From a virus, in IMG/VR virus record IMGVR_UViG_3300024346_000015, positions 1-64,000 of that record: a DNA stretch of 64,000 nt, one strand, 5' to 3'. The notes below the pieces were generated by a model that was not told where the DNA came from, searched no databases, and was given only the letters and a program-made list of their open reading frames with translations. Below are positions 11,299-63,471 of the stretch, in pieces; position 1 is the stretch's first letter; the number at the start of each line of letters is the position of its first letter. A program made the translations under genes and the position numbers.

Positions 11299-11826
11299 TT
11301 AACTAGTAGTATTTGATTCCCAATATTGGATAGCAAATTCTACAGTGAACTCTTCGATCGTATCATTAGTCTCGTAAGACAATGCGATCTCCGACACATT
11401 AGTCGGGAAACAACCACGGAAGTTGTATGTTTTCAATACATCTCCATTGCGGTCTAATTGATCAACTGACAGATCAGCTTCGTAATCTACAGGGTTAGAC
11501 AAACCAGTATTTGCAGCATGTGCATTAATACCATTCATCCAACGCTCCATAGCGTCACGAACACTAAAGTCTGTGTCGTTGATTACAGTTACAGTCCAGT
11601 TAGCGAAAGTACGATCGCCCGCAATCTTCAATTGGCGTCCACGGAACGGAACAGTTACCAGTGCCATTTCTGACACAGGTAATGCCGCTGTCTTACACAG
11701 GAAGGATGCAAGTTCTACATCTCCACCAGCGTAAGCAGGGAAGTTCAATGTTGCCTTGAAGAGATTGGGTCGCGCACCGCCACCACGGAGTTTTGACTTA
11801 AAGTCATCTACACCTAATACAGCCAT
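11299..11826 (-). CDS. 19: Tail tube protein gp19
   Basis: This 175-residue protein is the T4 gp19 homologue (163 aa). Typical features are the GGGARPNLFKATLNFP start, the LPVSEMALVTVPFRGRQLKIAGDR block, WTVTVINDTDF and the C-terminal RGCFPTNVSEIALSYETND plus FTVEFAIQYW. It forms the stacked hexamers of the inner tail tube. It sits 13 nt after the sheath gene, in the late unit that starts at 13691-13698. Confidence 0.96.
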   Translation of the reverse strand: MAVLGVDDFKSKLRGGGARPNLFKATLNFPAYAGGDVELASFLCKTAALPVSEMALVTVPFRGRQLKIAGDRTFANWTVTVINDTDFSVRDAMERWMNGINAHAANTGLSNPVDYEADLSVDQLDRNGDVLKTYNFRGCFPTNVSEIALSYETNDTIEEFTVEFAIQYWESNTTS

Positions 11827-57186: not shown

Positions 57187-57792
57187 ATGAGTAATTTATT
57201 TAACAGACTAGAACTACAGGCATTCCGTGCGGGAGTTACACCTCGTACCAAGGAGAGTCGTGATTGGTTCCGACAGAAAGCATCTAATCTACGATCTATC
57301 AACCGTGAAGCGTTGATGAAAGAAGATCCGTTGAAGAAACGTGATGCGGGTAAAGCAGACAATCGTGAGATGATCGGTAGTATGCAGATGTTTTTCTATG
57401 ATCCAAAACATAAGAAGACATTGCCGTACTACGATGCGTTTCCGTTGGTCATCATTGTTGGCCCAGCGGAAGGTGGGTTCTACGGACTCAACTTGCATTA
57501 CTTACCTCCGATACTTCGTGCGAAGTTTCTGGATGCGTTGATGGGTGTACTTGGACAAAAGATGACCCAGAGTGCGAGACAAGCATTAACTTATAATATG
57601 TTGAAGAAGGCCGCCAAGATGCGGTACTACAAACCGTGTTTGAAACACTATCTAACCGCACATGTAAAGAGTCGGTTCGCAGAAGTACAAACACCAGAGT
57701 GGGAGATTGCAACATTCTTACCGACTGCACAGTTCCGTAAGGCAAACTCACAGAAAGTATTCTACGATTCAAGGCAAAAGATAGATGGCTAA
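57187..57792 (+). CDS. 2: gp2-like DNA end protector / head protein
   Basis: This 201-residue protein has the start LFNRLELQAFRAGVTPRTKESRDWFRQKAS and the core MFFYDPKHKKTLPYYDAFPLVIIVGPAEGGFYGLNLHYLPP, a block I associate with proteins annotated as gp2 (DNA end protector) in T4-like phages. In T4, gp2 binds DNA ends in the filled head, protecting them from RecBCD, and lies next to gp4 as here. T4 gp2 has 274 residues, so this version is shorter. The function is inferred from neighbourhood and recalled similarity, not from a catalytic motif. It overlaps gp54 by eight bases. Confidence 0.6.
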   Translation: MSNLFNRLELQAFRAGVTPRTKESRDWFRQKASNLRSINREALMKEDPLKKRDAGKADNREMIGSMQMFFYDPKHKKTLPYYDAFPLVIIVGPAEGGFYGLNLHYLPPILRAKFLDALMGVLGQKMTQSARQALTYNMLKKAAKMRYYKPCLKHYLTAHVKSRFAEVQTPEWEIATFLPTAQFRKANSQKVFYDSRQKIDG

Positions 57793-58483
57793 CTCAGTAA
57801 ACCAAATAGGTAACATTGAACAACTCAAGACTCTGATCGGTAGGAGTGGTGGCATACAACGTCCCAACCTCTACCGTGTACAGTTACCACCTATCGAAGG
57901 TTATGATACCAAAGATCTAAACTTATTGTGTAAGGCAGTAACCATGCCAGGCAGACAGTTAGGTACGATCGAAAAACAGATGGGTACATTCAAGATGGAC
58001 GTTGTTAACGCAATGACCTTGAGTGAAGTAACTATGGTGTTTCACGTACCGTCTAATCATGTCGTCAAGTCTTACTTCGAAGCATGGCAGTCTGCGATGT
58101 GGACACGTGGTGAGGTAGGTTACTACAAAGACTATTGCAGAGATATCGTTGTCGAGACTATACAGAAAGGTGCGTCCATTCCGTTGTACAACAAACAGAT
58201 CCCGTTCCTGACTAAACTGTCACCAACTATCAGAAACAGATTACCTGACATTGGCCCATTCAAGTTCTCTCAAGGAGAGGTTGATCTTGATTTGGGAACA
58301 ACAGACGAACCAGCATACACGTGTCGATTAATCGATGCGATTCCGACTACACTAAGTGACATCCAGTTGGGTGACGATCAAGGCGATGCAATTATGGAAC
58401 TTACGATATCGTTCAAGTTCAAAGATTGGTACAGTAAAGCGCACGATGCGAAGCGACTTTTTAGTGGACTAAATATACGTTAG
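57785..58483 (+). CDS. 54: Baseplate tail tube initiator, gp54-like
   Basis: This 232-residue protein is of the tube-fold type: RPNLYRVQLPPIEGYDTKDLNLLCKAVTMPGRQLGTIEKQM, the common start of tube, gp54 and gp48 proteins, then TMVFHVPSNHVVKSYFEAWQSAMW, and the end AIPTTLSDIQLGDDQGDAIMELTISFKF. T4 gp54 has 320 residues and begins tube polymerisation on gp48. It is longer than the true tube protein of this phage and placed in the gp54-gp26-gp29 cluster, which supports gp54. Another tube-like initiator function cannot be excluded. Confidence 0.7.
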   Translation: MANSVNQIGNIEQLKTLIGRSGGIQRPNLYRVQLPPIEGYDTKDLNLLCKAVTMPGRQLGTIEKQMGTFKMDVVNAMTLSEVTMVFHVPSNHVVKSYFEAWQSAMWTRGEVGYYKDYCRDIVVETIQKGASIPLYNKQIPFLTKLSPTIRNRLPDIGPFKFSQGEVDLDLGTTDEPAYTCRLIDAIPTTLSDIQLGDDQGDAIMELTISFKFKDWYSKAHDAKRLFSGLNIR

Positions 58484-58527: not shown

Positions 58528-59244
58528 ATGGCATTACCCAAGTTAAACACCGCACCGCTATATGAATTGGCGGTTCCTTCGACCGGACAGAAAGTAAGTT
58601 TTCGTCCGTATCTAGTGAAGGAAGAGAAAGTGTTGATGATGGCGTTTGAATCTGGAGATCAGAAACAAGCGTTGAAAGCAATCGTCTCAACAATTGATGC
58701 GTGTGTTCAAGAGAAGTTGACGGTCAGAGACTTAGCAACATTCGATGTAGAGTATATGTTTACTCAGATTCGTTCTAAGTCTGCCGGTGAAAAGGCGACC
58801 GTGATGTTGAAGTGTAAGGAATGTGGGACACAACACGAGTACAGCGTTGACTTATCAACGATTGGTGTTGACATCCCAGACGATAGTGGTCTGATTGAGC
58901 TGACCGACAATATAACGATCGAGATGCGTTATCCACCATATAGTTCATTGATGGATAGTAATCTAAATGCTGATCAGATGGAATTAGGATTAGCGATGGT
59001 CGTGAGTAGTGTCAGTGCAATCATTGTTACTAACGGACTAGAAGAAGAACGAATAGATGCGAAAGACGTATCTAAAAAAGAAATATACGATTTCATCGAA
59101 TCGATGACGAGTGAACAGTTTGAGAGAGTTACCCAGTATATCGGAGATCTCCCAGCCATGAAACATAATGCGAAGTTTACTTGTTTGAATTGTGATACCG
59201 AAAATGACATGGAACTTAAAGGGATATCGGATTTTTTATCCTAA
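58528..59244 (+). CDS. 26: gp26-family baseplate/tail assembly protein (zero-frame product)
   Basis: This 238-residue member of the T4 gp26 baseplate family (208 aa in T4) has the LVKEEKVLMMAFESGDQKQALKAIVSTIDACV helix, a zinc-ribbon-like pair CKEC (C96, C99) and a second pair CLNC (C219, C222), and the PPYSSLMDSN segment. Despite its name, T4 gp26 has been hard to place in the mature baseplate. Here the gene ends on a slippery heptamer and is followed by an open -1 frame and then the tape measure, which is the layout of tail-assembly chaperones. A good AGGAGA site precedes the ATG. Confidence 0.88.
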   Translation: MALPKLNTAPLYELAVPSTGQKVSFRPYLVKEEKVLMMAFESGDQKQALKAIVSTIDACVQEKLTVRDLATFDVEYMFTQIRSKSAGEKATVMLKCKECGTQHEYSVDLSTIGVDIPDDSGLIELTDNITIEMRYPPYSSLMDSNLNADQMELGLAMVVSSVSAIIVTNGLEEERIDAKDVSKKEIYDFIESMTSEQFERVTQYIGDLPAMKHNAKFTCLNCDTENDMELKGISDFLS

Positions 59245-59432
59245 ACCTTTCTCATGATAGTCTTGTAAACCATTATAAGACGAATTTTGCAATGATGCAA
59301 CATCATCATTATAGTTTAACAGAACTGGACATGATGATGCCATGGGAGAGGGAGATTTACGTCAGTATGTTATTGGATCACATTAAAGAAGAGAATGAAC
59401 GTATAGAACAACAAAATAAACAAAACGGATAG
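58528..59432 (+). CDS. Predicted -1 frameshift product of gp26 (about 301 residues)
   Basis: The last codons of gp26 are GAT TTT TTA TCC TAA, giving slippery T-TTT-TTA at 59232-59238 in the correct register. After a -1 slip the frame stays open through 64 codons to TAG at 59430-59432. That segment reads like protein, with SLTELDMMMPWEREIYVSML and a charged end HIKEENERIEQQNK. An AAGGGA lies 7 nt upstream of the heptamer, as in dnaX. An 8-bp hairpin at 59260-59281 (GTCTTGTA/TATAAGAC) lies about 21 nt downstream, farther than usual. The tape measure starts 4 nt after the TAG. Frame and motif are seen directly; the slip itself is inferred. Confidence 0.72.
59232..59238 (+). promoter_or_regulatory. 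TTTTTTA programmed -1 frameshift heptamer
   Basis: X-XXY-YYZ heptamer T-TTT-TTA in frame 0 of gp26, six bases before its TAA stop. See the frameshift product entry for the surrounding stimulators. Confidence 0.75.
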
Positions 59433-59436
59433 AGTA

Positions 59437-61725
59437 ATGGCAAAACAGGCGAACTTACAAGGTGCGATCGACAAGTTAAGAACTTCTAATGAGAAGGTTC
59501 TTGGCGAGATGAATGATCGTTCAGGTGAAATTGCATTCAACACAAGAACCACCAAGAATCTTATTGGTGATATGTTGGATGGGATGGCTCTCGATCGTCA
59601 AAGAGGTCAAGACGAGGAAGAAACCGTAGCACCAGCCGGTGGGGGTCGTGATAACGGTTCTCCGGAAAGTAAAGACTCTGGTGGTGGACTCGGTATCGCA
59701 AGAATGTTGGCAGGACTTGCCGGTGCAGCCCTTGGTTTTGTAAGTGGTTTCATTAGTGCGTTTACTAGACCATTGATGAAAGCATTAAAGTCTTTCAAGA
59801 AGGCGTTCTCGTCAAGTACGTTAGGTAAAACCGTAACTCAATTCGGTAAGAACCTATCCAAACAGTTTAAGTTGTTCTTCAAACCTCTGGTCAATACACT
59901 CAAGAATATTCGTATTGCATTCTCTGAAGGACTCAAAGGCAATGCGAAAGTAGTCCGTGGCGCCATGGGTAGAATGATGAATCCAGTAAAAGGATTCGTT
60001 GGTATCTTTGGTCGTATCGGTAACTTGTTGAGTCCGATAGTCAAGGATATGAAGAGACGTATCAAGGTTGTCCGAAAGTCATTTGGTTTACTCCGAACGG
60101 GTGTGAGCAGTGTTTCTGGATTCTTTGGTCGTATCGGATCAGTCTTCTCTAGAGTAGGTCAAGGTATAAAGGCTGCGGGTTCAGCACTAGGTAGTCTAGG
60201 AAACGTCTTCAAAGGTTTCTTTAAAGTGTTCGCCACCATTGGTCGTGTAGTTGCGTTCCCTATAACCATCATCACTGGATTGGTCGGTGGTTTCATGAAC
60301 ATGTTCAAAGAAGGTAAGGAGTCTATGGCCAAAGGCGATAGTTTCTTTAAGGTCTTTGTCAATGGTTTCTATGGATTCATCGAAGGTGCGATCAATGCTG
60401 TCATAATGGCACCATTAGATATGTTGAAAGATGGTATCGGTTGGATTGCTGGTAAACTAGGATTCGAGAACTTCGAGAACATGTTGGCTGGATTCAGTTT
60501 CTCAGGACTGTTCAGTGGATTGATCGATGGTATAAAGAACATGATCTTCGGAATCGCAGACTTCTTTGTACAACTAGTGACAGATCCGATTGGTCTATTC
60601 AAGAAGATAGGTGCAGCGATCGGTAGTTTCATGGGTTCTATCGGAGAGAGTATCTCCGGTATGTTCGGAAACTTGATTGATGGTGTATTCGGATTCTTCA
60701 CGGGTGATGAAGGTATGTTCGCCAAACTAGGTGAAGGTGTCGCTAATATTAAGAACAAGTTTAGAGAGTTTATCCTTGGTATGTTACCGGAGAGAGGATC
60801 GTTCCTTGAGAAGTTTGTTCCTGATTCCGTCTATGAGTGGGCGGGTACTACTGCACCACCGGCAGAAGCGGGAGCGGAACCTGTCGCTGACGCACAAGGA
60901 GCAACACCAGAAGTAGAGATGACCAAGGAAGAACTACAGAAACAATTAGTGGCAGACAAAAAAGATCTTGCAGATGCAACTCAAGCAAGAGATGATGGAA
61001 CTGGTTCGGATCTTGAAGTCGAGAAGATGCAGATGTTCGTAGATGCAACAGAGATGCAACTAGCCGGACTCAAAGAGTTGACCACCTCTAACAAAGATAT
61101 GAATGACGCAAGACTTGAGGCAATCAAGACTAACGACACATCTAAGTTAGAAGAAGTGAAGAAGAAAGAACGTAGACCTCGTAAGTCCTATGAAGAACTA
61201 CAAATGGATAGACTTGCGAAGATGAAGGATCAACTTGAAAGAGGTGAGGCAACCTTCACGTGGTCACAGGCAGAGTTAGATGGAGCAAATGCAGCAGACC
61301 GAGAATGGATGATGCAAGATAACTCTGAGGAAGGTCAAGCGAATCAGTTGAAAGAACTCAGTAAGAGTATCGCAGCGAAAGAAAAAGAACTTGAAGACTA
61401 TAAACTAAAACAAGCACAAAAAGAGATGGATATCGCTAAGTATGGTTCTGCTCAAGGGGCGAGACTTGCGAAGATGTCTGAAGCTGACCGTGAGAAGAAT
61501 CTTACACGTGCAAGAGAAATGATTGCGAAATCTGAGAGAGGCGAAGAGGTTCTTGCAGTCAATAAGAGAAGAGCAGAAGCGTTACTCGCTGCAGATGCAA
61601 ATAGACAATCCTCAATGATAGTCGCACCGTCTACCAACGTAGTAAACAACAGCGCACCTACTACCGCAGTTATGAACATGAACATGCCTGCAACCGATGC
61701 ATTAGACCTTAGTTACGGTACATAA
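59437..61725 (+). CDS. 29: Tape measure protein, gp29-like
   Basis: This 762-residue protein has the tape-measure plan: a helical N-terminus, a Gly/Ala-rich hydrophobic segment (GLGIARMLAGLAGAALGFVSGFISAF, about 82-107), a long amphipathic middle rich in FGRIG/FSGLFSGLI repeats with several hydrophobic stretches (about 230-440), and a charged coiled coil (about 490-720, for example KEKELEDYKLKQAQKEMDIAK). T4 gp29 has 590 residues; a longer protein predicts a longer tail tube. It follows the gp26 frameshift frame by 4 nt. The stop is immediately followed by the convergent gp32 terminator. A C-terminal segment with NNSAPTTAVMNMNMP is typical of such proteins. Confidence 0.85.
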   Translation: MAKQANLQGAIDKLRTSNEKVLGEMNDRSGEIAFNTRTTKNLIGDMLDGMALDRQRGQDEEETVAPAGGGRDNGSPESKDSGGGLGIARMLAGLAGAALGFVSGFISAFTRPLMKALKSFKKAFSSSTLGKTVTQFGKNLSKQFKLFFKPLVNTLKNIRIAFSEGLKGNAKVVRGAMGRMMNPVKGFVGIFGRIGNLLSPIVKDMKRRIKVVRKSFGLLRTGVSSVSGFFGRIGSVFSRVGQGIKAAGSALGSLGNVFKGFFKVFATIGRVVAFPITIITGLVGGFMNMFKEGKESMAKGDSFFKVFVNGFYGFIEGAINAVIMAPLDMLKDGIGWIAGKLGFENFENMLAGFSFSGLFSGLIDGIKNMIFGIADFFVQLVTDPIGLFKKIGAAIGSFMGSIGESISGMFGNLIDGVFGFFTGDEGMFAKLGEGVANIKNKFREFILGMLPERGSFLEKFVPDSVYEWAGTTAPPAEAGAEPVADAQGATPEVEMTKEELQKQLVADKKDLADATQARDDGTGSDLEVEKMQMFVDATEMQLAGLKELTTSNKDMNDARLEAIKTNDTSKLEEVKKKERRPRKSYEELQMDRLAKMKDQLERGEATFTWSQAELDGANAADREWMMQDNSEEGQANQLKELSKSIAAKEKELEDYKLKQAQKEMDIAKYGSAQGARLAKMSEADREKNLTRAREMIAKSERGEEVLAVNKRRAEALLAADANRQSSMIVAPSTNVVNNSAPTTAVMNMNMPATDALDLSYGT

Positions 61726-61749
61726 AAAAAGGGACTCCGAAGAGTCCCT
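61724..61749 (-). terminator. Intrinsic terminator of the gp32 unit
   Basis: On the minus strand: 8-bp stem AGGGACTC/GAGTCCCT, TTCG loop, seven T residues. Identical in stem, loop and A/T run to the capsid terminator at 6009-6035. It also abuts the tape measure stop codon on the other strand and may act there weakly. Confidence 0.92.
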
Positions 61750-62955: not shown

Positions 62956-63471
62956 TCATTTCTGTATCTTTCCCAACCATGCAGTGACGACTAACCTTGT
63001 ACCCTTTACAACCGGAGACGCAGCGTGCCAATGATCAGCTGGAAATACTATGGTCTGACCTTCTTCTATTTTCGGAGAATAACCAACATCGTCATCCTCA
63101 CTTGAATACAAAACAAGACCATCCCCTTCGAAGTCATCTGATAGTTCAAGAATACTCACCGTAGTATATATTCTATTTTCCTCTTCACCTATAATGCGAT
63201 CATAATGTTTAACAAACTTCTGACCCTTATCGTAATGAAGAACATCTATCTGTGTGACTTCTAATTCACCGTATATGGAGGCCATTTGTTCACAGAACTC
63301 CGGATACCATGTACGATGGACATCTAACTTAGTACTGGTACGATCGTTGGAAAGATATCCATTGGTACCAACACTAACCTGACTAGGTGTTACTGACAAA
63401 GAACCTGAATAGAAATCGTCCTTGATCTCATCCAGAAGTTCTTTGTCTATAATGTATCGACCCTCATACAT
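62956..63471 (-). CDS. Prolyl-4-hydroxylase-like 2OG-Fe(II) oxygenase
   Basis: This 171-residue protein has an intact P4H-type site: HYD (H89, D91) in GQKFVKHYDRI, distal ligand H149 in FPADHWHAASPVVKGTR and a basic residue (K156 or R159) for 2-oxoglutarate. Strands VLHYDKGQ and TTVSILELSDDFEGDGLVLYSS fit the double-stranded beta-helix with the usual FxGG-like glycine turn. P4H-like proteins hydroxylate prolines or other residues; small versions are common in marine T4-like phages and their substrates are unknown. It overlaps gp33 by eight bases upstream. Confidence 0.85.
   Translation of the reverse strand: MYEGRYIIDKELLDEIKDDFYSGSLSVTPSQVSVGTNGYLSNDRTSTKLDVHRTWYPEFCEQMASIYGELEVTQIDVLHYDKGQKFVKHYDRIIGEEENRIYTTVSILELSDDFEGDGLVLYSSEDDDVGYSPKIEEGQTIVFPADHWHAASPVVKGTRLVVTAWLGKIQK

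Follow-up and report, generated by a model that had tools for sequence, protein, structure and literature searches.

Does the gp26 gene of this virus give only the protein that ends at its stop codon, or do some ribosomes change frame shortly before that stop and add a further domain? The gene lies toward the end of the window, by which we mean the whole stretch of 64,000 nucleotides analysed here, and its 3' end reads GAT TTT TTA TCC TAA. The features of the locus are as follows.

57785 to 58483, plus strand: tail-tube-like protein gene, 232 aa (phrog_45, tail tube, E 8.8e-32; phrog_3629, E 4.4e-15)
58528 to 59244, plus strand: gp26, putative short form (TAC-N), 238 aa (PF12322, phrog_150)
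59219 to 59224, plus strand: AAGGGA, a possible Shine-Dalgarno (SD)-like stimulator 7 nt 5' of the heptamer
59232 to 59238, plus strand: putative slippery heptamer T TTT TTA, of the form X XXY YYZ and in register with gp26
59238 to 59432, plus strand: -1 frame extension (gp51 or TAC-C domain), 64 codons and TAG (phrog_634)
59260 to 59281, plus strand: 9-bp hairpin with an ACCA loop, starting 21 nt 3' of the heptamer (z -2.9 against shuffles)
59437 to 61725, plus strand: tape measure protein gene, 762 aa (tail length tape measure: phrog_4200, E 3.8e-07; phrog_58, E 1.1e-06)

An earlier note on this DNA had located the heptamer, the AAGGGA, the hairpin, the 64-codon -1 frame and a 4-nt gap before the tape measure gene, and all of these coordinates hold; the -1 frame stops with TAG at 59430-59432, and the tape measure gene begins with the ATG at 59437. 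Counted regardless of frame, TTTTTTA is common in the window (10 copies, with 14 expected). Among the 50 ATG-initiated open reading frames of at least 100 codons in the window, two have an in-register X XXY YYZ within the last five codons; the -1 frame is 66 codons long in gp26, including the two slippery codons, and 6 codons long in the second. Given the conservation described below, the combination of the heptamer and the -1 extension at gp26 is, on sequence grounds, far beyond chance.

The gp26 protein matched PF12322 over nearly its full length (residues 11-237 on positions 3-218 of the 219 of the profile, E 1.1e-54) as well as phrog_150 (E 1.8e-58), and its two CxxC pairs are both conserved. 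The extension matched phrog_634, which is labelled 'baseplate hub assembly catalyst' and corresponds to gp51 (E 6e-28). The C-terminal end of the phrog_150 profile was also matched by the extension, as is expected if phrog_150 includes fused members such as T4 gp51. In the PHROGs search, gp26 matched no family labelled as a tail assembly chaperone, and a sequence search of the PDB with a gp26 profile gave no significant match. The AlphaFold2 model of gp26 (mean pLDDT 87.9) was compared with known structures by Foldseek, and the HK97 tail assembly chaperone 2ob9 was the sole high-probability PDB match among the matches listed (probability 0.77-0.80, TM-score normalized to the target 0.40-0.52, E 0.8-1.1), the other listed PDB matches being below 0.1. 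The viral models matched by gp26 were annotated as T4-type hub and hub-chaperone proteins. This model comparison is suggestive only of a likeness of gp26 to the HK97 chaperone fold.

The tail-tube-like gene lies directly 5' of gp26, at the place taken by V in lambda, and the order of tube-like gene, gp26/51 and tape measure gene is that of the G/GT-type chaperone loci. Elsewhere in the window there are two further matches to the gp19-type tail tube domain (PF06841), on the minus strand at 1980-2225 and 11317-11637. Beyond the tape measure gene, a terminator-like hairpin (AGGGACTC/GAGTCCCT; 61730-61749), whose T run is on the minus strand, sits between the convergent tape measure gene and a gp32-like gene. 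The latter and the late-transcription regulator genes are adjoined by a 2OG-Fe(II) oxygenase-like gene (62956-63471, minus strand; phrog_61, E 7.5e-16).

The comparison set comprised 80 gp26 genes, that is, 79 IMG/VR loci and the window; a second set comprised 12 named T4-like phages, all outside the T-even type and spanning Kyanoviridae, KVP40-type Vibrio phages, rhizobial phages, Caulobacter phage Cr30 and Pseudomonas phage pf16. T TTT TTN was found in register, 7 or 10 nt 5' of the stop, in 80/80 of the gp26 genes, and in register together with a homologous -1 extension in 12/12 of the named phages; these counts come from related sequences and do not represent independent events. Over both sets the distance from heptamer to stop was 7-13 nt. 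All contigs long enough to show the extension carry a homologous one, except L069, in which it is broken; in another outlier, L105, gp26 itself is broken at codon 162, and both look like sequence errors or decayed copies. The alignment of the extension (49 sequences) shows the motif SHDxLxNHYxTNF...YSLTELxxMxPWEREIY, and tblastn found the extension in 577 public phage records. Distant gp26 queries added a few loci, which were consistent with the remaining set. Relatives that had lost the heptamer or the -1 frame, named beforehand as what would speak against a frameshift, were thus looked for; heptamer and frame were kept throughout the two sets, apart from the broken extension of L069.

Among the 46 distinct sequences, the first six T of the heptamer are invariant and its last base is free (A in 18, T in 16, C in 11 and G in 1). 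The first phenylalanine codon of the heptamer is TTT in 46/46, compared with 68% elsewhere in gp26, and the base before it is T in 46/46, compared with 44-68%.

In T4 the two genes are separate: gene 26 lies on the minus strand and encodes 208 aa, gene 51 on the plus strand and encodes 249 aa. The products of both belong to PF12322. The extension domain is carried by T4 gp51 (phrog_634, E 1.2e-23; the extension of the window aligned with gp51 residues 205-244, hhalign E 1.2e-4) and is absent from T4 gp26. Thus T4 encodes the short form (gp26) and the long fused form (gp51) as two genes; in Aeromonas phage Aes508 they are split in the same way.

The extension could instead be an independent small gene, gp51, with a translation start of its own or read by ribosomes that reinitiate past the gp26 stop. 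Public records do annotate a distinct 'baseplate hub assembly catalyst' open reading frame, the window has an ATG-initiated frame of 46 codons from 59292 (its first -1-frame start codon, 60 nt past the heptamer start), and six of the 12 named phages have a -1-frame ATG that shares bases with the gp26 stop (TAATG or TGATG). However, a start at 59292 would drop 18 preceding codons, which are conserved as protein. Over 70 pairs of related sequences, pN/pS 5' of the heptamer was 0.39 for frame 0 against 1.7 for frame -1, whereas from the heptamer to the position of the first -1 ATG of the window the values were 0.16 (frame -1) and 1.76 (frame 0). Because the ratio is low in frame 0 upstream and in frame -1 downstream, the heptamer marks the point at which purifying selection passes from the one frame to the other, 5' of the first -1 start of the window. 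Furthermore, 10 of the 46 distinct loci have a TGA in the -1 frame immediately next to the heptamer, and therefore a route from gp26 into the extension would exist there only by slippage on the heptamer. The heptamer is kept even where the stop-overlapping ATG exists, and T4 gp51 carries the domain fused to a gp26-like part. We consider a separate gene very unlikely as the explanation of the extension.

Slippage of the RNA polymerase on the T run would likewise give the longer protein, from a mixed pool of mRNA, and the site is indeed a homopolymer of six or seven T in all of the relatives. A run of six T, as in the window, is however short for efficient transcriptional slippage. Moreover, the run always stands in the X XXY YYZ register and only the last base varies; polymerase slippage would have no need of the register, whereas the fixed register with a variable last base is what tandem tRNA slippage predicts. 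This explanation appears even less probable than a separate gene. That the frame break is a sequencing or assembly error in what is really one continuous frame, as might be imagined since homopolymers are error-prone and the T4 long form is a single uninterrupted gene, is refuted by the comparison, for the identical break occurs in every gp26 gene of the first set and every named phage of the second, with a variable distance to the stop, and its probability is practically nil.

The preferred reading, therefore, is slippage of the ribosome. Two candidate stimulators, the AAGGGA and the hairpin, had been proposed in the earlier note as part of the signal. Both are present in the window, but the hairpin is not conserved and too distant, and the case for AAGGGA is weak. 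The hairpin recurs in the close clade of the window, with some, limited, compensatory changes; across 43 sequences no consensus RNA structure was found downstream, and conserved structure 5-9 nt 3' of the heptamer was not seen, the hairpin of the window being 21 nt away. It is probably not a stimulator. In the AAGGGA of the relatives the GG is invariant, but it is part of a glycine codon conserved in the protein, and the flanking purines are common without being fixed; a role as an SD-like stimulator is thus only weakly suggested. A pairing across the heptamer between AAAGG (5') and CCTTT (3') was also considered and rejected: 87% of the cells were paired, the same as in shuffles, with no covariation, and the level of pairing is explained by the conserved protein sequence.

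Thus, it is highly probable that the gp26 product is a tail assembly chaperone in its short form and that -1 slippage at T TTT TTA gives a longer fusion. A minority of the ribosomes would slip back by one base on the heptamer near the 3' end of gp26, bypass its stop and add the C-terminal domain of 64 residues, so that a fusion protein of about 301 aa results. On the model of lambda G/GT, the short form in many copies and the long form in a few may hold the tape measure protein in an assembly-competent state, the C-terminal domain may recruit tail tube subunits, and neither form would be expected in the finished virion. The sequences show the slippery site, its conservation, the change of frame under selection and the homology to T4 gp26 and gp51; that ribosomes of the infected cell slip here, how often they do so and that the products act as chaperones, we infer. 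Conservation, the coding signature, the architecture of T4 gp51 and gene order together lend strong support to both the programmed -1 frameshift and the tail-chaperone role proposed in the earlier note.

The phages with an ATG over the gp26 stop in the -1 frame are VH1_2019, phiM19, Cr30, D485, AF3 and S-CRM01 (L090, L091, L092, L093, L096 and L097), and in them the ATG moves with the stop relative to the heptamer. This suggests termination-reinitiation in those six, which might produce free gp51 besides the fusion; the window lacks such an ATG. One possible scenario, which we regard as rather doubtful as a whole, is that the frameshift is ancestral and near-universal in T4-like phages (including the KVP40-type, rhizobial and Caulobacter phages) and was replaced in the T-even phages by separate short and long genes, and that free gp51 is a third product, by reinitiation at TAATG or TGATG, in several lineages outside the close clade of the window.

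An abstract by Vladimirov, Gautam and Davidson reportedly describes frameshifting as conserved across several groups of T4-like phages and names genes 26 and 51 as those used by T4. According to PMC10885494, the tail assembly chaperone genes of T4-like phages were identified by these authors (Virology 2022, 566:9-15), and poly-T slippery sequences in T4-like TAC-N genes are stated as known, with citation of the same work, in PMC12846349 (2025). The frameshift in T4-like gp26 is thus already known, having been published in 2022 as these citing papers present it; the novelty implied earlier does not stand, and the case of the window is a correct rediscovery. What is added here is its breadth over the two sets, the pN/pS evidence for the change of frame and the case against the hairpin as stimulator. 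Sullivan et al. (PMC3037559) described that, relative to other gp51 proteins, cyanophage and marine vibriophage gp51 is without approximately the first 200 residues. What is annotated in cyanophages as a short 'gp51' is the extension, and the frameshift accounts for the apparent truncation, cyanophage gp51 being the C-terminal portion of a gp26-gp51 protein made by frameshifting. In a T4 review (PMC3004832), gp26 and gp51 are already described as hub assembly chaperones; our finding supports a tail-chaperone role for both, a reassignment already in print. Annotation lags behind: among the frameshifting public records inspected (L085-L097), none has a joined gp26-gp51 coding sequence, the halves are given as two genes, and the choice of the gp51 start varies.

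Compared with lambda gpG/gpGT, the heptamer of the window is T TTT TTA and the extension has only 64 residues; in our scans, lambda G/GT-type chaperones had no detectable sequence similarity to gp26 of the window. The T4 pair resembles the window in that gp26 corresponds to the short form and gp51 to that form with the extension domain added, but T4 uses two separate, oppositely oriented genes and no frameshift. In the chaperone locus of Vandenendeviridae (Pseudomonas phage Adele, PMC12846349), a conserved poly-T -1 motif is found at the end of TAC-N, as here, and the extension is usually annotated as a separate hypothetical gene; however, these are different phage families and the motif is GTTTTT. 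Closest is the T4-like gp26 (TAC-N) and gp51 (TAC-NC) system of Vladimirov et al. (2022), which involves the same families as the window (PF12322 or phrog_150, and phrog_634) and, as described in PMC12846349, the same poly-T slippery site close to where the short gene ends. As far as the accounts of that work go, there is no substantive difference between the two, and the window represents another phage of the frameshifting type.
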